A stretch of DNA of 64,000 nucleotides, taken from Streptomyces sp. R44. GTDB lineage: Bacteria; Actinomycetota; Actinomycetes; Streptomycetales; Streptomycetaceae. The notes below the pieces were generated by a model. That model was given only the letters and a program-made list of their open reading frames with translations, searched no databases and was not told the DNA's origin. Below, piece by piece: positions 1 to 13,543 of the stretch (its first letter is position 1; the number at the start of each line of letters is the position of its first letter). The position numbers and the translations under genes are program-made. The stretch is from assembly GCF_041053105.1 (NCBI RefSeq), contig NZ_CP163444.1, positions 3,286,001-3,350,000 on the forward strand, written 5' to 3'.

Positions 1-920
1 TCGTCCGCCCACCAGGAGCGGGCCACCTGCGCACCCGGGCTGTCCGGGTCGGGGCGCCCCAGCCACGCCGGGCCGGCGTACACCTCCCCGTCGACGGAAC
101 GCCAGGGCAGCTCCAGTCGACCGATGACACGACGCTCGGTCCGCCCCTCGTGGGGGACGGAGAGCGTGGAGTTGATGAGGACCATGCCGAGCGCGCTGGT
201 CGCCCAGAGTGTCGCCTTGCCGAGGCCGTAGGAACCACCCGCGCCGCGACCGGACTTGAGGCTCTCCAGCTGTCGACGGACGACGGCAGCGAACTTGCCG
301 TCGTCGTAGTCGTCCCCGGTGAGGCCGGAGGCGTTGTAGTCGTCGATACGGAGAAGGACGAGGCGCCCCTTCTCGAACATGTCGCGCACACCGGCGTCCA
401 CGACGCGGCCGACCTTCTGGTGGGAGGCGGCCTGCGAGACGGACGAGTAGTGGGGGTGGAGGTCGTCCCAGAGGATCGCCTTGCGGAAGGCGTCCAGCAT
501 TCCGCCGGTGAGTTCGTGGATGGTGTACCGCACACGCACAGGGCGACCGTTCTCGACCAGTCGCTCGTCGAGGCTGTTCTGGCACGTCTCCCGGGCGAGC
601 ACCTGGACGTCGGCGTCGAAGGCGAAGGCGGCGGCATTGCCGCCGTCGCGCCCGCCGTCGTGGTAGCCGGGCCGGTGGTACCAGGTGACGGGAAGCCCGA
701 CCTGGGTGTCGGTGGTGCGCGTGTGCACCGTCCCGAGGTCCGTCCCGAGGGCCTTGGCGATCTCCACCATGACGGTCGGGCGCGGGACCGATCGCTTGGT
801 GATCCACGCCGAGACCGCGGCCCGGGTCAGTCCCAACTCTTCGGCCAGTTCCGCCTGGGACCTGCCAGCGAGCCTGAGTTGACGGGCCAACCAGGGCCCG
901 AACTCCTCGCCTGTCTCCAC
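1..920 (-). CDS. XRE-type HTH plus GHKL ATPase protein (partial, runs off left edge)
   Basis: The reading frame is open from a GTG at 920 to the window edge (306 residues, C-terminus missing). Residues about 7-60 form a helix-turn-helix (SQAELAEELGLTRAAVSAWI). The rest carries GHKL ATPase signatures: an N-box-like ETCQNSLDE (111-119), a G1-like IDDYNASGL (192-200) and a G2-like GAGGSYGLGKATLW (226-239). GHKL folds occur in Hsp90, MutL, gyrase and MORC proteins. Fusion to a DNA-binding domain suggests an ATP-dependent regulator or sensor. It diverges from the helicase operon that starts at 1775, and a palindrome lies over its predicted transcription start, so autoregulation is likely. The start was chosen because the helix-turn-helix begins right after it; the ribosome site (AGGAG) is about 12 bases upstream, longer than usual. 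Its target is unknown. Confidence 0.75.
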   Translation of the reverse strand, partial: METGEEFGPWLARQLRLAGRSQAELAEELGLTRAAVSAWITKRSVPRPTVMVEIAKALGTDLGTVHTRTTDTQVGLPVTWYHRPGYHDGGRDGGNAAAFAFDADVQVLARETCQNSLDERLVENGRPVRVRYTIHELTGGMLDAFRKAILWDDLHPHYSSVSQAASHQKVGRVVDAGVRDMFEKGRLVLLRIDDYNASGLTGDDYDDGKFAAVVRRQLESLKSGRGAGGSYGLGKATLWATSALGMVLINSTLSVPHEGRTERRVIGRLELPWRSVDGEVYAGPAWLGRPDPDSPGAQVARSWWAD

Positions 921-932
921 GCGACCACCCCA

Positions 933-958
933 CTCCTGTCTGTGACTACGGACAGGAG
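933..958. promoter_or_regulatory. Candidate operator palindrome
   Basis: CTCCTGTC (933-940) and GACAGGAG (951-958) form a perfect 8-bp inverted repeat with a 10-base spacer; two further pairs (942/949, 943/948) extend it inward. It covers the predicted start of transcription of the HTH-GHKL gene and its AGGAG ribosome site. The most direct reading is an operator for that protein. It could also form a hairpin in the mRNA leader that hides the ribosome site. Confidence 0.45.
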
Positions 959-959
959 C

Positions 960-989
960 AGGCTAATTTGACGAAGAAGATCGCGTCAA
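960..989 (-). promoter_or_regulatory. Predicted promoter of the HTH-GHKL gene
   Basis: On the minus strand a TTGACG -35 (984-989) is separated by 18 bases from a TAGCCT -10 (960-965), which fits the Streptomyces housekeeping pattern of TTGAC and TAGxxT. Transcription would start near 953, leaving a leader of about 33 bases before the GTG at 920. This is a pattern match only. Confidence 0.5.
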
Positions 990-1426
990 TCAGAACTTGA
1001 CATCTTCAGCCATCGAAGAGTCTTTACAGTCTCGACCGAATTGCATCTATTTACGCCGCCTTGCCCGTTTTGCAATCGCCTGTGCGACCACTCGATACGG
1101 AATCCGAAATTCCATTGATGAAGAAATCGCGAATCGCCTGGCACCCTCCGCGGGATTCCCCTACCTTGGAGGAGTTGGAAAAGGCGATCCCATCCGGAAA
1201 GCCTCCGACGAGAACACGGGGAGAACTCTACCCTTTTCCTCCCCGCCACTCCGTGGACGCGCGCCCGAAAGGACCCCACAAGAAGCTCCTTCGACGGACC
1301 GGCGCGACCGGACAGAATTCCTCTGATATTTTCCTCGTCCCACTCGTATCGGCTGTCACCCGTGACCGCCCGAGTGGCGATGCAACGTGCCGGAAAACGC
1401 TTAGAACAAGGGTTTGGTGATTCACC
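990..1426. other. AT-richer intergenic region, probably the operon control region
   Basis: About 440 bases with clearly more A/T than the flanking genes and no convincing reading frame on either strand. It must hold the forward promoter for what follows, but I see no strong -35/-10 pair. A short palindrome GGTGA-T-TCACC lies at 1416-1426, just before the small frame at 1427. Low G+C upstream of an accessory operon is common in Streptomyces. Confidence 0.4.
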
Positions 1427-1648
1427 GTGGATGATTCTTCGGGGGCGGCGGATTCATACGGATTCGCCCATTGTTCGGCCGCTTCGAGCGGCCGGGAGTT
1501 AAGCTCCGTCCAGCTGGCTTGGAGCATGGTGTCCACCGATGTGGAACGGAAGCAGGTCGCCGACGACTTCGGAACGACGGAAGAGGAGCTCAGGGAAGTC
1601 CACGGCCTCGACGTCGAACGGTACGGAACCGCCGACCACGGCGGCTGA
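1427..1648 (+). CDS. Possible small protein upstream of the helicase operon
   Basis: A 73-residue frame from GTG at 1427. The second half, from an in-frame ATG at 1526 (40 residues), has strongly G/C third positions and a protein-like acidic sequence (DVERKQVADDF, TTEEELREVHGLDVERYG). The first half has poor codon bias, includes one TTA codon and spans a small hairpin (1476-1494). No good ribosome site precedes either start. It could be a short regulatory protein, a remnant of a larger gene, or non-coding. I recognise no family. Confidence 0.28.
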   Translation: MDDSSGAADSYGFAHCSAASSGRELSSVQLAWSMVSTDVERKQVADDFGTTEEELREVHGLDVERYGTADHGG

Positions 1649-1670
1649 CACCGGCCTGTGCACCACTGTG

Positions 1671-1730
1671 CGACGGGCCGGCCTTGTGCGGGTCCCGACA
1701 GCTCGGGACCCGCACAAGGCCGGCCCGTCG
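1671..1730 (+). terminator. Perfect 28-bp-arm hairpin upstream of the helicase operon
   Basis: The arms 1671-1698 and 1703-1730 are exactly complementary, with a four-base loop (cagc). It ends 44 bases before the ATG at 1775 and no T-run follows. It could end a short upstream transcript. If the operon promoter lies upstream it would be in the 5' leader and act as an attenuator or protein target. No plausible promoter fits between the hairpin and the gene. Confidence 0.65.
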
Positions 1731-1774
1731 GAGGCCCTTCCCGACCTTCCTCGATTCCAGGAGCCGCAGAAAAG

Positions 1775-4700
1775 ATGTCGCCCACCAAATCCCAGGTCGT
1801 CGATACCGTTCTCGACCAGTCGGAACGTGTCCTGCAGACCTATGCGGTCGACCCCGGCCTCATTCCGGAGCACGCCAACAGCGAGCGTCGGATCACCCAG
1901 GGCGGGTACGGCGATCGCCAGCTGTTCGAACTCGTGCAGAACGCGGCCGACGAAATCGCGTCCCAGCCCGGCGGTACCGCCCACGTCGTCCTCACTAACA
2001 CCCACCTCTACTGCGCCAATGAGGGCTCTCCTGTCACCCCCGAGGGCGCGGAGACAATTCTGCGGATGAGCATGTCGCGGAAACGAGGCGGTCAGATCGG
2101 CCGCTTCGGGGTCGGCGTGAAATCAGTGCTCGTCGTCACCGACACCCCGCAGTTCTTCAGCAGCACCGGTTCCTTCGGGTTCGACCGCGAGTGGGCCCAC
2201 GAGCGGATCCGCTCGGTGCCGGGCGTGACGGACCGTCTGGGGGAGAACTTCGAAGCACCGGTGCTGCGCATGGCGCGCCCCCTCGACATGGCTGCCGAAC
2301 GTGCCCAGGACCCCGTTCTCGACGAGCTGCTCGAATGGGCCGTCACCGTCGTGCGCCTGCCGCTGCTCCCCGGTGCCGCAGACAAGCTGGCCCAGGACAT
2401 GCATGGCGGGCGCAAGGGCGCCGGGGCGTCCCGCGAGGAGTTCCCGGTCGGCTTCCAACTCCTCTCCCCACACGTGGCGAAGGTCGTCCTCGAAGACCGC
2501 AGGCCTCGGCCGGTCGCCCGTCGTGTCCTGACCACCGAGCAGGAAGGCGACCTGCACACCGTGGCGGAGGAGCGGACGGGGAAGCCCACCACCACCGCCC
2601 GATGGCGGGTCTTCTCCGTGACCCACGAGCCGGGGCCGGCGGCCCGGGCCGACGCCGGTGAGCTGCACGACCGTCTCGCGCTCGACCTCGCCTGGGCCGT
2701 GCCGGCGCTGGAGCGGGATACGGAGAGCGGACTGTACATCTCCCCCCGGTCCCGCGGCCGTGGACGCTTCTGGTCGTTCTTCCCGACCAAGTACGAGATG
2801 TCTCTCAGCGGCATCCTCAACGGCGCATGGAAGACGAACGAGGACCGACAGAACCTCCTCGACTCGTCCGCCTTCAACGAGGAGATGGTCAAGGTCTCGG
2901 CGGCTCTGGTCGTCGACGCGCTCCCCCGGCTCGCCCCCGCCGAGGACCCTGCCGCCTATCTCCCGCTGCTGCCGGGACGCGCGAAGGAGGCCATCAGCTG
3001 GGCGGACGAGTCCCTCACCCGGGAGATCTGGGAACGGACCGCGGTCCGACCGTCGTTGCCCGACCAGGACGGGGTGCTCCGCGTGCCCACGGAACTGCGG
3101 GTGCACCCCCGCCTCGACAAGGACCAGAAGCGCCTCACCGGATGGCTCCGCATGTGGCACGAGTGCCCCGGTCGCCCCGCGGACTGGCTGCATCCCAACG
3201 CCGAGGCCGACCTCCTGCGCTCCGGCAAGGTGGAGCACATACTCTCGGCGGCCGAGCACAAGCGCACGGACGTGCGCACCTGGCTGGAGGCGCTCGTCGA
3301 GTGCGGCACTGCCGAAGCATCCGCAGTGGCGATCCGCATCCTTGCGGAGATGATCGAGATCAGGTCACCGTACGCCGAGGAGGCCCGCAGGGCCCGCATC
3401 GTGCTCACCGAGGAACACGGCCTCGTCGCCCCCGTCCCGGGCCGCGTCTTCCGACGCGCCGACGAGGGAGGGCTGCGGGAGACCCTCGTGTACGTGGTCG
3501 GCGACATCGCCCAGGATCCGTCGCTCGCCCACGCACTCGATGTCCTCGGCATCCGGGAGGCGGACGCCGAAGGGCGGTTCTTCAGCGTCCTCGATCAGGG
3601 CTTCGACGGGTACGGGGACACCGAGTGGGAGCGATTCTGGGAGCTGTTCCGTCGGGCGGGCGGACGCCGACTGGCCCACAGAGTGCTGGAGAGGGTCCCG
3701 GGCGCCCGCGAGACGCTGCGCGTACGCACCGCGGACGGCAGGTTCCGGCCCGTGCGCGACTGCATGCTTCCGGGGCCGGTCGTCGACCCGCAGCGTGACC
3801 CGAGCATCGCCGTCGACATGGGCTTCCACTCCGACGACGTGCCCTTCTTCTCGGAGATCGGCCTGCGCGCGCTGCCTTCGACCTCGGTGCGACCGGACGG
3901 CGAGGAATGGTTCGAGGAGTACCGGGAGGCAGTCCACTCGGCCTATCTGCGGTCCCTGGACGACCACGCCCCGCGCCCCTCCATCGGTCGGATGAAGGTG
4001 GAGGGCTCCGCCGTCGGCGGTCCCCTGTACCTCTTCCGATCGCTCTCGGAGGAGTCCCGCGCGGCCTTCCTGAAGGCGCTGCCGGACGACGCCGTCGTGG
4101 ACAACTGGACCCGCCAGATCGGTGCGCAGACGAGTACGCGGCAGGCCGTTGCGTCGCCGATCCGCTGGCTGTTCAGGAAGTACGGGACGGTCGCCACCTC
4201 CCAGGGGATCAAGCCGCTGAGGGAAGCGGTCGGCCCTCAGCTGGCCGCCTATCGCGATGTGCTGCCGGTCGCCGAGATCTCGCCGGAGAAGGCCCGGAAG
4301 CTGCGCCTGCCGACCACGGTCGAGGAAGTCCCGTCCGCGCGTTGGGAGAACCTTCTCACCGAAGTGGCCCGGAGCGAGGACGACACCTTCGTGGGAGCCA
4401 CCTACGTGATGCTGACCCGGTTCGGCGCGGACTTCCCCGAGGACTCGTTGACCCGTTGCCGCATCGGTGACGCGTGGGGCGATCGACCGGACGAGGAGAT
4501 CACCGTCGCGGTCGGTCCGACCGAGTACCGGGCGCTGCGCGCCGAACAGCTTCCCGCGCTGCTGGTGCCGAGCGCGGCGGACGCCGAGTTGATGGTCGAG
4601 AAGTGGGGCATGCTCCGCTACGCCGACGTGATCAGCAAGGAGACCCGTGAGGTCCCGGACGGTGACCCCGTGGCTCTGGTCGAGTTGTACCCCGCCCTTC

Positions 4701-6532
4701 GCCAGCGGCTCAACAGCACCCACCGGAACAGCCTGGTGCAGCGGTGCACCGAACTGGAGGAGGTGACCCGCACCCCCAACGGCACCAAGCCTCGCCAGCT
4801 GGACGCGGTGCGCCAGGGCAGCACGGTGAAGGTCCGTGTCCCGGTGGACCCCGAACCGATGCTGCGGCTGATCGACCGTGAACTGGAGTTGGGACTCGGT
4901 GCGGCCGGTTGCAGGGCGGTTCTGGAGCACCAGGAACGCATGGCCCGGGACAGCGAGACGAGGGCGGCGCTCAGGGCCGTACGCGACGCCGAGGACGTCG
5001 TCTCGAAGATCGAGCTCCTGATCGGCGCCGAGGCCCTGCGGTCAGGGCTGCCCGAAGGCCTGATGGAAGCCGAGCTGCAGGAGAGCGACGGTACGGAGCC
5101 GTCCCCGCACCGGATCGCCCAGATGGCCTTCAACGCACACGGCGACGGAGTGCTCCAGCAGCACGCCCGGGACATTCAGGCCACATTTCCCAACGCCCCG
5201 GTCGCCTACGGCGGTTCGTCGGCGGCCATCGCCTTCGTCTCCGACCTGCGACTCCCGGTGACCTTCGCCGGTTCCAGGACCCCGTCGCCGCCCGCGTTCG
5301 AGACCGTGGACGGCCCCAGGGACTTCCCCCGCCTCCACGACTACCAGGAGGACCTGGTCCGCAACATCAGCACGCTGCTCGACCGGCTGGCCCCGCAGCG
5401 CGCCATGCTGTCGTTGCCCACCGGCGCCGGCAAGACCCGGGTCACGGCGGAAGCCGTGATCCGATGGGTCAAGCAGGTGGGTGACCTGCAGGGTCCGCTG
5501 CTGTGGATCGCGCAGACCGAGGAGCTGTGCGAGCAGGCCGTTCAGAGCTGGAAGTTCGTCTGGAACAAGGTGGGTGCGGAACGACCGCTCACCATCAGCC
5601 GGTTGTGGAGCACCAACGAGGTCGGGGACGTCGTCGACCATCCGCATCTCGTCGTCGCCACGGACGCCAAACTGGAGCGCTGCCTGGACACCGAGGCGTA
5701 CGACTGGCTGCGGCAGGCCGCCCTGGTGATCGTGGACGAGGCCCACACCGCCGTCTCCAAGCGGTACACGGGAATCCTGGGGCAGTTGGGTCTCACCCAG
5801 TACGAGACGAAGCGCCACCTGTTGGGCCTGACGGCCACCCCGTTCCGCAACACCAACGAGGAGGAGACCGACCGGCTGGTCAAGCGCTTCGGCAACAAGC
5901 GGCTCGACGAGGGCGTGTTCCCGTCCGGCGATCCGTACCGGGACCTCCAGGAATGGGGCATGCTCGCACAGGTCGAGCACCGCACCCTGGAAGGCGGCCG
6001 GATCGAACTGACCCGTGAGGAGAAGGCGCAGGCGGACCGGATGGCCACGCTCGCGCGCGCCGCCGAGCAGCGGCTCGCCGACGACCACACCCGCAGCCGC
6101 CGCATCGTCGACGAGGTGGTCGCCCTCCCGGAGGACTGGCCGACCCTGCTCTTCGCCACCTCCGTGGACCACGCCAAGTACCTGGCAGCCATGCTCAACG
6201 ACCGCGGTGTCCCGGCCGCGGCCGTGGACTCGACGACCAGCGCCCAGGACCGTCGGCGGCGCATCGAGGAGTTCCGTGCGGGACGCATCCGCGTCCTCAC
6301 CAACTACGGCGTCCTCACCCAGGGGTTCGACGCTCCCGCGACCCGCGTCGTGGTGGTGGCCCGCCCGGTCTACAGCACCAACGTCTACCAGCAGATGATC
6401 GGTCGTGGCCTGCGCGGCCCCAGGAACGGCGGCAAGGACACCTGCCTGATCCTCAACGTCAGCGACAACATCGAGAACTTCGACACCCAACTCGCGTTCA
6501 ACCAGTTCGAGCACCTCTGGAGCCGCAAGTGA
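1775..6532 (+). CDS. Sacsin/Hsp90-like ATPase fused to a DEAH SF2 helicase
   Basis: A 1585-residue protein. Residues about 20-200 look like the sacsin N-terminal ATPase: LFELVQNAADEI (N-box, about 50) and GRFGVGVKSVL (G2-like, about 110). The C-terminal 400 residues are an SF2 helicase: LPTGAGKTR (Walker A, about 1214), IVDEAHTAVSKRY (DEAH box, about 1319), LLGLTATPFRN (motif III) and QMIGRGLRG (motif VI, about 1539). The roughly 800 residues between them are not recognised. The ATG at 1775 was chosen over an upstream in-frame GTG at 1658 because AGGAG (1759-1763) precedes it and the GTG would read through the hairpin. The stop overlaps the next GTG start (GTGA), so translation is probably coupled. 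This fusion has the size and layout of a large sensor or effector ATPase in defence systems; that role is inferred. Confidence 0.88.
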   Translation: MSPTKSQVVDTVLDQSERVLQTYAVDPGLIPEHANSERRITQGGYGDRQLFELVQNAADEIASQPGGTAHVVLTNTHLYCANEGSPVTPEGAETILRMSMSRKRGGQIGRFGVGVKSVLVVTDTPQFFSSTGSFGFDREWAHERIRSVPGVTDRLGENFEAPVLRMARPLDMAAERAQDPVLDELLEWAVTVVRLPLLPGAADKLAQDMHGGRKGAGASREEFPVGFQLLSPHVAKVVLEDRRPRPVARRVLTTEQEGDLHTVAEERTGKPTTTARWRVFSVTHEPGPAARADAGELHDRLALDLAWAVPALERDTESGLYISPRSRGRGRFWSFFPTKYEMSLSGILNGAWKTNEDRQNLLDSSAFNEEMVKVSAALVVDALPRLAPAEDPAAYLPLLPGRAKEAISWADESLTREIWERTAVRPSLPDQDGVLRVPTELRVHPRLDKDQKRLTGWLRMWHECPGRPADWLHPNAEADLLRSGKVEHILSAAEHKRTDVRTWLEALVECGTAEASAVAIRILAEMIEIRSPYAEEARRARIVLTEEHGLVAPVPGRVFRRADEGGLRETLVYVVGDIAQDPSLAHALDVLGIREADAEGRFFSVLDQGFDGYGDTEWERFWELFRRAGGRRLAHRVLERVPGARETLRVRTADGRFRPVRDCMLPGPVVDPQRDPSIAVDMGFHSDDVPFFSEIGLRALPSTSVRPDGEEWFEEYREAVHSAYLRSLDDHAPRPSIGRMKVEGSAVGGPLYLFRSLSEESRAAFLKALPDDAVVDNWTRQIGAQTSTRQAVASPIRWLFRKYGTVATSQGIKPLREAVGPQLAAYRDVLPVAEISPEKARKLRLPTTVEEVPSARWENLLTEVARSEDDTFVGATYVMLTRFGADFPEDSLTRCRIGDAWGDRPDEEITVAVGPTEYRALRAEQLPALLVPSAADAELMVEKWGMLRYADVISKETREVPDGDPVALVELYPALRQRLNSTHRNSLVQRCTELEEVTRTPNGTKPRQLDAVRQGSTVKVRVPVDPEPMLRLIDRELELGLGAAGCRAVLEHQERMARDSETRAALRAVRDAEDVVSKIELLIGAEALRSGLPEGLMEAELQESDGTEPSPHRIAQMAFNAHGDGVLQQHARDIQATFPNAPVAYGGSSAAIAFVSDLRLPVTFAGSRTPSPPAFETVDGPRDFPRLHDYQEDLVRNISTLLDRLAPQRAMLSLPTGAGKTRVTAEAVIRWVKQVGDLQGPLLWIAQTEELCEQAVQSWKFVWNKVGAERPLTISRLWSTNEVGDVVDHPHLVVATDAKLERCLDTEAYDWLRQAALVIVDEAHTAVSKRYTGILGQLGLTQYETKRHLLGLTATPFRNTNEEETDRLVKRFGNKRLDEGVFPSGDPYRDLQEWGMLAQVEHRTLEGGRIELTREEKAQADRMATLARAAEQRLADDHTRSRRIVDEVVALPEDWPTLLFATSVDHAKYLAAMLNDRGVPAAAVDSTTSAQDRRRRIEEFRAGRIRVLTNYGVLTQGFDAPATRVVVVARPVYSTNVYQQMIGRGLRGPRNGGKDTCLILNVSDNIENFDTQLAFNQFEHLWSRK

Positions 6533-8433
6533 CCGACACCTACCTCGACAGTCCCCCGCTCACCGACGAGCAGCGGGCCGTGGTCGAGCAGCCCTGGGAC
6601 GCCCGTGTGCTGGTCACGGCCGGGGCAGGAGCAGGCAAGACGCACACCTTGGTGCGTCGGCTCGACGCACTGTGCGGGCACGAGGACCCGGAGGAGGCTC
6701 TGGAGGCTGCCGAGATCCTTGTCCTCACCTTCTCCCGGGCAGCGGCACGTGAGCTGCGGGAGCGGATCACCCGGCACGGGGAGCGAGCCCGTCGAGTCCG
6801 GGCGCAGACCTTCGACGCCTGGGCCTACGGGGTGCTCCGGCAGGCCCATCCGGACGGCGAGTGGGGCTCGGTCGGCTTCGAAGGGCGGATCGCGGCCGCG
6901 GCACAGGCTATCGAGAAGGGAGCGCTGGAGGCAGGCGACGCCGTTCCGCCCGCCCACGTCGTGATCGACGAGGTCCAGGACCTGTTGGGGGCCCGCCGTG
7001 AGCTGGTGGAGACCCTTCTGGACCGGTATCAGGACAGTTGCGGGTTCACCGTCGTCGGTGATGCCGCCCAGACCGTGTACGGCTTCCAGATCGAGGACTT
7101 GGCCGAGCGCATCGACGAGACCGGTCGGTTCTTCGACTGGCTGCGCTGTTCGTTCCCCGACGACCTGGTCGAGCTGCAGCTCACACAGAACTTCCGGGCC
7201 GCCACCCCCGAGGCCGGGGCGGCACTGGCGTACGGGCCGCGGCTGCAGCAGCTCGCCGACACGGACCTGGCGGCGACACTGTACGAGGAGCTGCGCGAGC
7301 TGCTGCTGGAACCTGCGAACGGAGTGGGCGACCTCACCGATCCGTTGACGCTGGACGGTCTGCGGAACCTCTCCGACACCTGCGCGATCCTCACCCGGGA
7401 CAATCGACAGGCCCTGGTGGTGTCCGATCTCCTCCACCAGCACGGCATCGCCCACCGGCTGCGACGTCCCCTCGAGGACCGGCCGGTCCCGTACTGGGTG
7501 GCCGAGTTGTTGCGCCGTACCGAGGCCGGCAGCCTCACCGAGGACCGCTTCCGTGCCCTGCTGGACGAGATCTCTCTGCCGTTCGAGCCGAATGCGACCG
7601 CCCTGTGGTCGGTGCTGCGACGTGCCGCACGCGGGACCGGCCGCAACGCACTCGACCTCGAGCGTCTGCGCCGCTCCGTCGCGGACGGTCGGTTCCCCGA
7701 CGAGGCGGCCGACCCGGAGACCTCGCGCATCGTCGTCACCACCGTGCACCGGGCCAAGGGGCTCGAGTTCGACCGCGTCATCGTCCTGACCCCACCGACG
7801 GTGGCCGAACTTCGCAAGCAGTACAAGGACGAGCTGGACCTGCCCGCCGAGGCCCGAGCCCTCTACGTGGCGATGACGCGCGCCCGCCAGGACCTCTACC
7901 ACGTGCACTCCCCCCGGTTGCCGGTCCTGAGGCGCGCGGAGGGCAGAAGGAACGGCCGCAGGTACGTGGGTGGGTGGCGGTCGTACGACAGGTACGGAAT
8001 CGTCTCCGAGGCCGGGGACGTCGACCGGAACGATCCGCCGGGCCACGAGACCGACGCCGTCACGACGCAGGCGTACCTCCTGAGGCGGGTTCTCCCCGGG
8101 CACGAGGTGGTGCTGCGCAGGCGCCACGGCCTTCCGGCGGGAGAACACCAGAGCCCGCCCTACGCCCTCGTGCACGACGGGTGCGAGATCGGTGAGGCCT
8201 CCCGGACGTTCCGCGAGGAGCTGTTCCAGGTGCAGAAGGTGAATCGGACCTGGGACCCCTGGTGGCCCGACGAGATCCACGGCATACGGATCGACACCCT
8301 GGAGACCGTGACGGGCAGCACCGCTGCCGGCGCCAACGCCGGCCTCGGCGACCGAGGAGTGTGGATCGCGCCCCAGATCACCGGCATCGGTGGATACCGC
8401 CGGGCCGACGACAACGAGGAGATGACCGCATGA
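6529..8433 (+). CDS. UvrD/PcrA-like SF1 helicase
   Basis: A 634-residue protein starting at a GTG that overlaps the previous stop. SF1A motifs appear in order: TAGAGAGKTHTLVRR (Walker A, 30-44), LTFSRAAARELRERI (motif Ia), VVIDEVQDLLG (motif II, about 148), VVGDAAQTVYGF (motif III), LTQNFRA (motif IV), TVHRAKGLEFDRVIV (motif V) and YVAMTRARQDLY (motif VI, about 445). The last 170 residues are not a standard UvrD C-terminus and may be a partner-binding domain. Typical UvrD is longer, about 720 residues. It is co-translated with helicases on both sides and is probably a component of the same system, not a repair housekeeping gene. Confidence 0.9.
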   Translation: MTDTYLDSPPLTDEQRAVVEQPWDARVLVTAGAGAGKTHTLVRRLDALCGHEDPEEALEAAEILVLTFSRAAARELRERITRHGERARRVRAQTFDAWAYGVLRQAHPDGEWGSVGFEGRIAAAAQAIEKGALEAGDAVPPAHVVIDEVQDLLGARRELVETLLDRYQDSCGFTVVGDAAQTVYGFQIEDLAERIDETGRFFDWLRCSFPDDLVELQLTQNFRAATPEAGAALAYGPRLQQLADTDLAATLYEELRELLLEPANGVGDLTDPLTLDGLRNLSDTCAILTRDNRQALVVSDLLHQHGIAHRLRRPLEDRPVPYWVAELLRRTEAGSLTEDRFRALLDEISLPFEPNATALWSVLRRAARGTGRNALDLERLRRSVADGRFPDEAADPETSRIVVTTVHRAKGLEFDRVIVLTPPTVAELRKQYKDELDLPAEARALYVAMTRARQDLYHVHSPRLPVLRRAEGRRNGRRYVGGWRSYDRYGIVSEAGDVDRNDPPGHETDAVTTQAYLLRRVLPGHEVVLRRRHGLPAGEHQSPPYALVHDGCEIGEASRTFREELFQVQKVNRTWDPWWPDEIHGIRIDTLETVTGSTAAGANAGLGDRGVWIAPQITGIGGYRRADDNEEMTA

Positions 8434-11400
8434 CGCACGTGGCAGGCCGTCACGCCGAGCACTACCGGGTCCGGGACGAGGAACTCCTGACGGGGCTGCG
8501 TCGTGAACTCCTCGGTCCCTCCCCCGACGCCCCGCCGGACGAGCGGGACGAGGTCCTCCTCCAGGACGCCCCGATCGACCGCTACCTCACCGGGGTCCTG
8601 TACCCGAGGTCCTCGAACGCCGCCGCTGAGGACCGGATGCGTGAGGACGAGGAGGAGCATGCCGGCTCGGACAGCGCACCGATGCGGTCCCGGGACGACG
8701 TGGAGGAGTCGGGCACCGCGGACGAGATCGGCGCCGCCGGGTCCCGCCGCCCGTCCTCGATGGGACTCACCTTCGCGGTCGATCCGATCCTGAGCCCCAC
8801 GATCATGATCCAGGCCCGCGCCGCGGTCTACGAGCCCACCGACGCGGACGGTAGCCCCGTCCCGGCCCGCCGCGCCGAGGCCCGAACCACCTCCGACCAG
8901 CAGGAACAGTGGCGACGCAAGGTGCTCGCACTGCCGGAGATCCCGGTCGACGTGACCTCGCCGAACCCGGCTCTGCGGGTCGAGCTCGGCCACGGCGCGG
9001 CACTCCGCGTCAACGTCCGTCGCCCCGACGCGACCACCGGCACGGTCACGATCACGGTCACGCTGGTGAACACACAGCGCATCGGCGAGTACGACCTCCA
9101 GGACGCGGCATCGCTCTTCCAGTGCGGACTCACCGTCCGCGCGGCCGACGGCTCCAGCGCGTTCGTCGTGCGCCCGGCGCCGGTCGCCGCCCACGACCCC
9201 GAGGTCGCCACCAGCCGGTTGCTCCACCGCCACGCCCCGACCTTCGCCGTCGGTCACGGCTGCGCCGCCGCATGGGACTGGGCACCGCCACCGATCGGGA
9301 TGACGGAGTCCGTGGACGCCGCCGTGCCCGAAGTGCGCAGCGAGTTCGTGCCCAGCGTCGAAGTGCTGCTCACCGACTCCAACCCGGAGATCGACAGCTC
9401 CGCCCTGTCCATGCTCGGTCTCGCCGAGGGCTCGGACGCCGACGTCCTGGATGCTCTGAAGGCGCTCGCCGCAGGCTACGAGCACTGGATCGACCGCAAG
9501 GAGGCGGAGGCAGCCGCCCTCGCCGGCACGCCTCACGCGAAGCCGGCCCTCGCCCAGGTCGAATCCTGTCGGGAAGCACTCGGAAGGATCCGGGAGGGCA
9601 TCGAGCTCCTCGGCGACGAACCGGACGTGATGCGGGCCTTCAGGCTCGCGAACCGAGCCATGGCCGAACAGCGGGCCCGTAGCGCCTGGGTCAAGGCCGG
9701 CCGGGTCGGTCTCCCCGACCCGACCGCCGGCAGCTGGCGTCCCTTCCAGATCGCGTTCGTACTGCTCTGCCTCGCCGGCATCGACGATCCCGGGCACCAC
9801 GACCGAGCCGTCGCGGACCTGCTGTGGTTCCCGACCGGTGGTGGCAAGACCGAGGCCTACCTCGGTCTGATCGCGTTCACCGCGTTCCTGCGTCGCATCC
9901 GGCGCGGCACGGACGGCGGCGGCGTCACCGTACTGATGCGCTACACGCTGCGGCTGCTCACGCTTCAGCAGTTCGAACGAGCCGCGATCCTGGTCTGCGC
10001 CATGGAGGTGCTGCGCCGAGACCTGCCCGACGAGCTGGGCACCGAGGAGTTCTCCATCGGGATGTGGGTGGGGCGCTCTGCCACGCCCAACACCCTCGAG
10101 GAGGCGGAGGCGAAACTCGCCGAACTCCGCAAGGACCTCGACAAACGCCTGGCCACCAAGAACCCGGTTCAACTGCATGCCTGCTCATGGTGCGGAACGC
10201 GCCTGGACGCCCGCGACTACGAGGTCGAGCCGGACGACAGGCGGATGTACGTCCGCTGCCCCGGCTCCGGCTGCGACTTCTCCGACGGTCTGCCGGTCCA
10301 CCTGATCGACGAGGCCGTCTACGACGCCCGCCCGACCCTGGTGATCGCCACCGTCGACAAATTCGCCTCGATGCCGTGGCGTCCGGCCACCGCGGCTCTC
10401 TTCAATCGGGACGGGCAGACCGACCGCACTCCGCCCCCCGAACTGATCGTCCAGGACGAGCTCCACCTGATCTCGGGCCCGCTCGGGACGCTCACCGGCC
10501 TCTACGAGACCGCGGTGGACGCCCTCGCCGACAGGCCCAAGGTGATCGCCTCCACCGCGACCATCCGTCGAGCCGCGACGCAGGGCCTCAACCTCTTCGA
10601 TCGTGACGTGCGCCAGTTCCCGCCCGCCGGCCTGGACTCCCGTGACTCGTGGTTCGCGGTGGAGACGCCACGCGAGGACAAGGCGAGCCGGCGCTACGTG
10701 GGTCTCCTCGCCCCCGCCACCAGCCAGTCCACCCTTCTCATCCGCACGTACGCCACCCTCATGCACCGTGCGCAGCAGGCGCGCACCGAGGACGAGGTCC
10801 GCGACGCCTACTGGAGCCTCGTCGGCTACTTCAACAGCCTTCGGCTGCTCTCCGCCGCGGAGCTCCAGGTCCATGACGACGTCGTCGCCTATCTGGAACT
10901 GCTCGCCGAGCGGGAAGGAGTGGAGGTCCGCTCCGCCGTCAACTACTCGGAACTGACGAGCCGGGTCGACGCCAGTGACATCCCCACCCGTCTCAAGGGC
11001 ATCGAGAAGAAGCTCCCGGACGCGGACACCGTGGACGTCCTGCTCGCGACCAACATGATCGCGGTCGGCGTCGACGTGGACCGGCTTGGGCTGATGGCCG
11101 TGATGGGCCAGCCGCAGACCACGGCCGAGTACATCCAGGCCACCAGCCGTGTCGGCCGCGCCCATCCGGGCCTCGTCGCCGTCATGCTCAACGCGACACG
11201 GTCCCGGGACCGTTCGCACTACGAGAACTTCCTCCACTTCCACTCCGCCCTGTACAGGGAGGTGGAGTCCACGTCCGTCACTCCCTTCTCCTCCCGGGCA
11301 CGCGAACGCGGGCTGCACGCCGTGATCGTCGCCCTCGCACGCATCCTCATTCCGGAGGCCCGTCCCAACGACGCCGCCGGGCGGGTCGAGTCCTACGAGC

Positions 11401-11687
11401 ACAGGCTCCGTACGGAGATCAAGAACGTTCTCGTCGAGCGCGTCGCCCACATCGACCCGGAGGAGTCCCGGGCCGTCTCCCGCGCCTTCGACGAGTTCGT
11501 CGAGTGGTGGTGTGCAGAGGCCGACGTCCATGGCGGCCTGCTCTTCGAACCGAAGAGGGGCGACCGCACACCGTCTCTCCTGAAGTCGTACGACGACGAG
11601 TCCGAGGGCGCCGAGGCCTGGCCCACCCTGTGGAGCCTGCGCGATGTCGACGCCGAGTCCGCCCTGTTCATGGAGGCATCCCGATGA
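8430..11687 (+). CDS. DrmA-like SF2 helicase (DISARM-related)
   Basis: A 1085-residue protein with the ATG at 8430 overlapping the UvrD stop (ATGA). Helicase motifs are WFPTGGGKTEAYLGL (Walker A, about 468), IVQDELHLISGPLG (motif II, about 675), ASTATIRRA (motif III) and YIQATSRVGRAHPG (motif VI, about 902). A zinc ribbon (CSWCGTRLD, then CPGSGC) lies at about 584-615. The QDELHLI box, the ribbon and an immediately downstream DUF1998 gene are the hallmarks I know for DrmA of DISARM. DrmA with DrmB is thought to recognise or process invading DNA. Here it lacks the usual DISARM partners, so I call it DrmA-like and do not name it drmA. Confidence 0.85.
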   Translation: MTHVAGRHAEHYRVRDEELLTGLRRELLGPSPDAPPDERDEVLLQDAPIDRYLTGVLYPRSSNAAAEDRMREDEEEHAGSDSAPMRSRDDVEESGTADEIGAAGSRRPSSMGLTFAVDPILSPTIMIQARAAVYEPTDADGSPVPARRAEARTTSDQQEQWRRKVLALPEIPVDVTSPNPALRVELGHGAALRVNVRRPDATTGTVTITVTLVNTQRIGEYDLQDAASLFQCGLTVRAADGSSAFVVRPAPVAAHDPEVATSRLLHRHAPTFAVGHGCAAAWDWAPPPIGMTESVDAAVPEVRSEFVPSVEVLLTDSNPEIDSSALSMLGLAEGSDADVLDALKALAAGYEHWIDRKEAEAAALAGTPHAKPALAQVESCREALGRIREGIELLGDEPDVMRAFRLANRAMAEQRARSAWVKAGRVGLPDPTAGSWRPFQIAFVLLCLAGIDDPGHHDRAVADLLWFPTGGGKTEAYLGLIAFTAFLRRIRRGTDGGGVTVLMRYTLRLLTLQQFERAAILVCAMEVLRRDLPDELGTEEFSIGMWVGRSATPNTLEEAEAKLAELRKDLDKRLATKNPVQLHACSWCGTRLDARDYEVEPDDRRMYVRCPGSGCDFSDGLPVHLIDEAVYDARPTLVIATVDKFASMPWRPATAALFNRDGQTDRTPPPELIVQDELHLISGPLGTLTGLYETAVDALADRPKVIASTATIRRAATQGLNLFDRDVRQFPPAGLDSRDSWFAVETPREDKASRRYVGLLAPATSQSTLLIRTYATLMHRAQQARTEDEVRDAYWSLVGYFNSLRLLSAAELQVHDDVVAYLELLAEREGVEVRSAVNYSELTSRVDASDIPTRLKGIEKKLPDADTVDVLLATNMIAVGVDVDRLGLMAVMGQPQTTAEYIQATSRVGRAHPGLVAVMLNATRSRDRSHYENFLHFHSALYREVESTSVTPFSSRARERGLHAVIVALARILIPEARPNDAAGRVESYEHRLRTEIKNVLVERVAHIDPEESRAVSRAFDEFVEWWCAEADVHGGLLFEPKRGDRTPSLLKSYDDESEGAEAWPTLWSLRDVDAESALFMEASR

Positions 11688-13543
11688 CCCCTCCCCCCGC
11701 ACGCCGTCGCCGCACCGGCACGGACGGTCGCGCTCCCGCCCACAACCTGCTCCGCCGAGGCGCGGTCCGCCGCTCCCAGATGATCACGACGTACGGAGTC
11801 GGATCGCTGATCGCCGTCGACCACGAGTCATTCGTCGTCTCCGGCCTGGACGGAGCCGACACCCACTGGAACTCCGACGAATCTCCCAAGATCCACGAGC
11901 GCCGGCTCGCCCGCCTCCTCGGCGTCCAGCACTTCCGGCTGCCTCCGGCGTCCGACGAGGCCAGCAAGGACGGGGTCCGGGTGCGCCGCTTCCCCCTGAT
12001 GCAGTCCTGCCCCGAATGCAATGAACTGCGTCGACACCGCGATTTCAACCCGCCCCCCGGCAGAAGCATCTGCGGCACGTGCGAAGCCGACCTGGTCCCC
12101 TCCCGCTTCGTGATCGCCTGCGAGGGCGGACACCTCGACGAGTTCCCCTACTGGCACTGGGTCCACCGCACCTCCGGTTCCGGGTCGATCACGGCCGGCC
12201 AGTGCGGAGGAACCCTCAAGCTGCGCACCTCGGGGCGCAGCTCCTCCCTCCGGTCCATCGTCGTCTCGTGCACCTGTGGTGTCCCGGAGGTCTCGATGGA
12301 GGGCTCCTTCCGCAGGAACGCCCTGAAGGACCTCGGACTGCGCTGCCGCGGCACCCGTCCGTGGCTCGGTACGTCCGTACCCGCGGAGTCCTGCGGCTTC
12401 ACCGCCCGCACCCTCCAGCGAGGTTCGTCCGCAGTGTGGCAACCGGTGCTGAAGTCGGCGCTCTCCATCCCGCCCTGGAGCGACGGCCGTGCCGACCCGC
12501 TCGCCGAGCATTGGGAGCAGCTCCGCGATCTCAACGGACGCGAAGAGGTGGAGATGTGCCTCAAGTTCGTCTTCAAGGACGAGATCCCGGTGCCTGTCGA
12601 CGAGGTCATGGCACTCCTGGACGCCGAACGGGAGGAGGATCCCGACGGCGAGGAGACGCCTGCTTTCGACCACCGGTACCGCGCCCTGCGCCACAAGGAG
12701 TACGAGCGCCTCCGCGCCGGCAACGACGAACGCGAGCATTCCCGCGACGAGCAGTTCGTCTGCGAGACCCCGCTCGGGGATCCGGCCGACCTGCATCCTC
12801 TCGGGGTCACCGGACCCATGCTGGTGAAGAAGCTTCGTGAGGTCCGCGCTCTCAAGGCGTTCACCCGACTCGCCGACCTCGACGCGACGACCGAGGGGAG
12901 GGAAGCCGCGCTCTCGACGTCCGAACTGACCTGGCTGCCCGCCATGGAGGTCCGTGGCGAAGGCGTTTTCGCCCGATTGGACGACACCCGCCTCGACGAG
13001 TGGGAGCGCTCGACCGCCGTGGCAGCACGCGTCGAGCGCATGCGGACCGCGCACGAGAGGCTCATCCAGCAACGCGCGGCCGACCCGACCCGGGTCCCGG
13101 CCTCTCCTGCCACCCCTCGAATGGTGCTGCTCCACACCCTGGCCCATGTGCTCATCAACGAATGGAGCCTCGACGCCGGCTACCCTGCCGCCGCACTTCG
13201 CGAGCGTCTCTACGCCGACGGCGACATGTCGGGCATGCTCATCTACACGGCCACCAGCGACTCGGCGGGCAGCCTCGGGGGGCTCGTCGCCCAGGGCGAA
13301 CCGGACCGGCTCGCCCACACGATCCGCGCCGCCGTACGCCGTGCGGAGTGGTGCTCCTCCGATCCGCTGTGCGTCGAGTCCGAGGCATCGGGCACAGGCG
13401 GCACGAACCTCGCCGCCTGCCACGCCTGTGTGATGCTCCCGGAGACGAGCTGTGAGCACAACAACCTGCTCCTGGACCGCGCACTGCTCGTGGGGACCCC
13501 GGAGGAACCACAGATCGGCTTCTTCGCACACCTGCAGACCTGA
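11684..13543 (+). CDS. DrmB-like DUF1998 protein (DISARM-related)
   Basis: A 619-residue protein; the ATG at 11684 overlaps the previous stop (ATGA) and a GGAGG lies about 10 bases upstream. The N-terminus has the DrmB-like stretch RRSQMITTYGVGSLIAVD. Two cysteine groups follow at about 109-145 (CPECNEL, ICGTCEADL) with ACEGGHLDEFP. The C-terminal 130 residues match DUF1998: TLAHVLINEWSLDAGYPA, YTATSDSAGSLGGL, and a metal-binding-like end with CSSDPLC, ACHACVMLPETSCEHNN and LLDRALL. DrmB forms a complex with DrmA in DISARM. It is the last gene of the operon; the next gene is core chromosome. Confidence 0.86.
   Translation: MTPPPARRRRTGTDGRAPAHNLLRRGAVRRSQMITTYGVGSLIAVDHESFVVSGLDGADTHWNSDESPKIHERRLARLLGVQHFRLPPASDEASKDGVRVRRFPLMQSCPECNELRRHRDFNPPPGRSICGTCEADLVPSRFVIACEGGHLDEFPYWHWVHRTSGSGSITAGQCGGTLKLRTSGRSSSLRSIVVSCTCGVPEVSMEGSFRRNALKDLGLRCRGTRPWLGTSVPAESCGFTARTLQRGSSAVWQPVLKSALSIPPWSDGRADPLAEHWEQLRDLNGREEVEMCLKFVFKDEIPVPVDEVMALLDAEREEDPDGEETPAFDHRYRALRHKEYERLRAGNDEREHSRDEQFVCETPLGDPADLHPLGVTGPMLVKKLREVRALKAFTRLADLDATTEGREAALSTSELTWLPAMEVRGEGVFARLDDTRLDEWERSTAVAARVERMRTAHERLIQQRAADPTRVPASPATPRMVLLHTLAHVLINEWSLDAGYPAAALRERLYADGDMSGMLIYTATSDSAGSLGGLVAQGEPDRLAHTIRAAVRRAEWCSSDPLCVESEASGTGGTNLAACHACVMLPETSCEHNNLLLDRALLVGTPEEPQIGFFAHLQT

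Follow-up and report, generated by a model that had tools for sequence, protein, structure and literature searches.

A ten-gene array in Streptomyces sp. R44 that probably serves antiviral defence, combining DISARM-type DrmA and DrmB with GHKL proteins and a dead/live cytosine methylase pair

The 64,000-nucleotide stretch of the Streptomyces sp. R44 genome analysed here (the window, C1:3286001-3350000 of a single contig of 8,892,027 bases) contains the right-hand part of a ten-gene array, which probably defends against viruses by uniting two known DNA-guarding machineries. Reading 18 kb leftward showed that six of the genes lie wholly or partly left of the window edge, while four plus-strand genes lie inside. 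On balance, we lean slightly towards a single composite defence system, half of it serving recognition and half destruction. What the sequence shows is gene content, motifs, constraint and linkage; every functional step is inferred from the families named. An earlier note had proposed a five-gene system made of an HTH-GHKL (helix-turn-helix plus GHKL) gene diverging from four helicase-operon genes with 4-base overlaps. The five genes are genuine, the overlaps are present (GTGA at 6529-6532, ATGA at 8430-8433 and 11684-11687), and the HTH-GHKL gene is indeed divergent. The set was nevertheless incomplete, with half of the array to the left and only 306 of the 714 HTH-GHKL residues inside the window. 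As to conservation of the neighbourhood, which the note had suggested checking, each of 53 further distinct arrays (53/53) includes the HTH-GHKL gene.

The dead methylase of the array is an unusual and testable component. Two C5-methylase homologues, dcmA (C1:3280304-3281290, plus strand, 328 residues) and dcmB (C1:3281336-3282907, plus strand, 523 residues), lie left of the window, and both match PF00145. The commonest DcmA variants retain the S-adenosylmethionine motif (mostly FVDVCSGAGGL) and the EN(V/L)P, VPQxR and GHATPPP-type motifs of C5 methylases. Where C5 methylases carry their nucleophilic cysteine, DcmA has GLPRV or another Cys-less variant in each of the 41 rows that could be read; the remaining one of the 42, L035, is frameshifted at this point. 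DcmB has GGPPCQ in 41/41. Instead of the usual ENV motif it carries LEQV. All DcmA homologues of at least 53% identity for which the motif was read are dead, and six full-length homologues at 35-43% identity have GGVPC; the weaker ones that were read have a cysteine as well. The locus of the dead DcmA also contains a live C5 methylase, including in L041, L069, L071 and L165, where that methylase is not orthologous to DcmB; in L072 the contig ends inside the C5 methylase gene.

Despite the lost nucleophile, DcmA is evidently not decaying, because its coding sequence remains constrained. The median ratio of nonsynonymous to synonymous substitution rates (dN/dS, Nei-Gojobori, non-independent pairs from 39 arrays with our own, L035 and L041 left out) is 0.168 for DcmA (296 pairs with dS of 0.05-1), compared with 0.274 for DcmB (401 pairs), 0.154 for HTH-GHKL (573) and 0.203 for DrmA (730). 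The conservation of a DcmA without an active site hints that it may read DNA rather than mark it. There are two counter-cases: the array L147, from which dcmA is missing, and L070.

The proposed destruction half ends in the genes for DrmA (window 8430..11687, plus strand, 1085 residues), a YprA-family helicase of the DISARM kind, and DrmB (window 11684..13543, plus strand, 619 residues), a DUF1998/MZB zinc protein. Both had been called DISARM-like from the letters alone, and both score above curated DISARM cut-offs. DrmA reaches 1011 bits against NF038325 (cut-off 950), and DrmB reaches 477 bits against NF038324 (cut-off 240) and 35.7 against PF09369 (cut-off 24.2). The solved Serratia pair 7s9v matches at E=1.9e-188 for DrmA and E=3.4e-74 for DrmB. 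The available text of PMC9142583 places the trigger loop of Serratia DrmA at residues 176-232, and the stretch aligned to it is an acidic loop here also.

These scores, together with the presence of a C5 methylase, favour an ordinary class 2 DISARM that lacks drmC and drmE and has acquired neighbours, working by the DISARM mechanism with the left half supplying methylation only. The accessible part of PMC9142583 also indicates that DrmC is apparently dispensable in DISARM. We nonetheless consider this explanation quite unlikely. Four extra ATPase or nuclease genes are conserved, and both methylase homologues fit other PADLOC families far better than DrmMII, whose best model gives 6e-17 for DcmB and 4.8e-28 for DcmA. 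DrmD or DrmE are the class-defining genes of DISARM, and neither they nor DrmC are among the PADLOC matches listed for the array and the scanned flanking proteins (the best 25 families for some). DrmC is a PLD-type nuclease, and the only PLDc_2 occurrences in this genome are near 0.29 Mb and near 4.64 Mb; the array is located at 3.28-3.30 Mb. The earlier interpretation, in which the array replaces DISARM parts, is partly supported: no DrmC, DrmD or DrmE match is listed. For the methylase it is wrong, since dcmA and dcmB complete the set left of the window.

Further proteins lie between these two groups. The HTH-GHKL gene (C1:3284776-3286920, minus strand, 714 residues; its 5' part is window 1..920) encodes an HTH_3 domain. 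Its GHKL assignment combines a PADLOC PDC-M33A match (2.7e-21, residues 104-250), the conserved motifs ARE..QNsLDeR and GGSyGLGKAT, and a profile match to the GHKL protein of L193. The GHKL-SF2 (superfamily II) gene (window 1775..6532, plus strand) has an N-terminus matching the NCBIfam sacsin-type domain at residues 86-166 (64.6 bits, cut-off 50) and TmtA models at residues 42-482 (best 1.2e-37). Its C-terminus carries ResIII and Helicase_C domains of the DEAH type, with RadD as the nearest solved helicase (1.3e-21), and the roughly 700 residues in the middle have no family match. The N-terminal part exists as a standalone gene in an Arthrobacter plasmid operon. Another stretch of the R44 genome, L102 (C1:4863449-4864012), also matches the sacsin-type GHKL N-terminus, although weakly (42% over 184 residues in a frame of 1185 residues). 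The UvrD-like superfamily I helicase gene (window 6529..8433, plus strand, 634 residues) matches PF00580 and PF13361. These domain matches uphold the identities first given to the three proteins.

Further genes left of the window would belong to the recognition half. The vsr gene (C1:3279838-3280311, plus strand, 157 residues) matches PF03852 at 58 bits (cut-off 27) and E. coli Vsr 1cw0 at E=5.5e-14. The most frequent variants listed retain the aspartate of RRRIDVAF and the GCFWHGC motif, which we presume to be catalytic. The DUF6339 gene (C1:3282917-3283780, minus strand, 287 residues) matches the PADLOC M33C model, and gene X follows at C1:3283777-3284772 (minus strand, 331 residues). Another reading makes the array a mismatch-repair system, in which Vsr, a MutL-like GHKL protein and UvrD would fix the T:G mismatches to which methylation by DcmB gives rise. 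All three do belong to very-short-patch and mismatch repair, according to the available part of PMC2292703; we regard this explanation as very improbable.

The 42 GHKL-SF2 loci comprise 40 from Streptomyces and one each from Kitasatospora and Hamadaea. The right flank is common to 25/42 loci (14 clusters), the left flank beyond vsr to 20/37, and a SEC-C gene flanks 22/41, many stretches being too short to reach its position. Because these flanks and the SEC-C gene are shared among loci, many arrays evidently occupy one hotspot, and array counts are not counts of independent insertions.

Alternatively, two independent defence systems could be neighbours in a hotspot. One would be a Mza/PDC-M33-type methylation system (vsr, dcmA, dcmB, DUF6339, X and HTH-GHKL), the other a helicase system resembling DISARM (GHKL-SF2, uvrD, drmA and drmB). 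The right half does occur without the left in L106 and L108. Furthermore, pairwise distances among 40 arrays form two correlated blocks, one of dcmA, dcmB, HTH-GHKL and GHKL-SF2 (Spearman 0.57-0.80) and one of uvrD, drmA and drmB (0.70-0.87), and the second does not track the Dcm genes (0.02-0.17). The separation is incomplete, since HTH-GHKL and GHKL-SF2 correlate with the second block at 0.33-0.54. Along protein windows the sharpest change falls at the GHKL-SF2/uvrD junction. We find two separate systems rather doubtful. The pattern of distances suggests that the halves of the array found new partners within the genus without a change of layout.

If the array works as one composite system, DcmB would mark the host genome. 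DcmA, together with DUF6339, may bind target sites without methylating them, as a reader or partner comparable to Dnmt3L beside Dnmt3A. At unmarked sites, the GHKL protein would close on DNA as a MutL/MORC-like clamp, and Vsr would nick the clamped DNA. UvrD, the GHKL-SF2 helicase and DrmAB could then load at the nick and unwind the DNA, leading to destruction of incoming phage or plasmid DNA. In Serratia DrmAB, the trigger loop holds the complex off until single-stranded DNA is met (PMC9142583, available text).

Control of the divergent operons is probably a further role of the GHKL protein, exerted through its HTH end. The control region between these operons (window 921..1774, no strand assigned) has conserved alignment columns and is AT-richer, as the earlier note had observed, with a GC fraction of 0.618 at 1001-2000 vs ~0.68-0.72 within genes. 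A promoter-like block, AGGCTAATTTGAC-N12-GTCAA, at window 960-989 is conserved across 22 aligned regions. A near-perfect hairpin with 31-bp arms and a 2-base loop (window 1669-1732, no strand assigned) lies about 43 bases upstream of the helicase-operon start codon, and the best hairpin falls 38-52 bases upstream of the start in 19/42 regions. It is possible that this hairpin is an attenuator or operator. The most likely start of the GHKL-SF2 gene is ATG 1775 rather than GTG 1658, because the hairpin lies between the two and a conserved CAGGAG block resembling a ribosome site stands 11 bases upstream of ATG 1775.

If the composite reading is correct, it links DISARM with GHKL-type Mza/MORC restriction, two families of DNA defence catalogued apart, and gives a conserved dead methylase a role. 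It would also account for Streptomyces DrmA/DrmB pairs without DrmC, and offer a system for studying the MORC-like ATPases of bacteria, which are related to proteins of gene silencing in eukaryotes. The dead/live pair allows a direct biochemical test of whether the dead subunit sets sequence or self/non-self reading.

The listings of our literature search contained no description of the ten-gene set; subscription papers and most preprints fell outside its scope. Individual parts have clear relatives. TmtA, which we take to be Tiamat, matches the N-terminal stretch of GHKL-SF2, but those matches stop by about residue 490, and here the stretch is part of a fusion with an SF2 helicase within a set of ten genes. 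The HTH-GHKL gene fits the PDC-M33A model and the DUF6339 gene the M33C model, although partially and weakly; in the 20 papers listed, of 663 in total, the name PDC-M33 does not occur. Mza-type and MORC-paraMORC restriction operons (PADLOC MzaC, MzaD) are among the closest known systems. A 2008 study described operons that join GHKL proteins to Dcm, Vsr and SF2 helicases, and the array resembles these paraMORC operons in having all four kinds of protein (PMC2292703, available text).

ARMADA type II comprises functionally the same set, drawn largely from other families: an SF2 helicase, a methylase, a YprA-family helicase, a Vsr-type nuclease and a UvrD-like helicase. Its own parts are a BrxHII-like helicase, a PglX-like methylase, a one-piece YprA with fused Vsr and a RelE-fused UvrD (PMC12458937, available part). 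In contrast, the array has a RadD-like SF2 helicase fused to GHKL, C5 methylases, and split DrmA and DrmB of DISARM type; its vsr is a gene of its own, and its UvrD shows no RelE match. The BrxHI|BrxHII model matches the SF2 part at only 0.0014. Instead of a one-piece ARMADA-clade YprA with fused Vsr, the array has separate DrmA and DrmB genes, which match DISARM families, and a vsr that stands apart. The ARMADA paper notes many uncharacterized DISARM-like classes, and its main text, as far as available, contains none of the terms sacsin, GHKL, MORC, cytosine or Streptomyces (PMC12458937). A hybrid operon closer to ARMADA is found at L105:786-19806, where a GHKL-SF2 protein (51%) accompanies a type IIG/DrmMI-like methylase, a Druantia-like YprA helicase, an 885-residue UvrD helicase and a 542-residue protein without Pfam or PADLOC match. 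With DISARM, finally, the array shares a DrmA/DrmB pair at the curated level, a solved Serratia homologue and a nearby C5 methylase; it differs in having no DrmC, DrmD or DrmE match and in adding GHKL-SF2, UvrD, HTH-GHKL, DUF6339, X, Vsr and the dead methylase.
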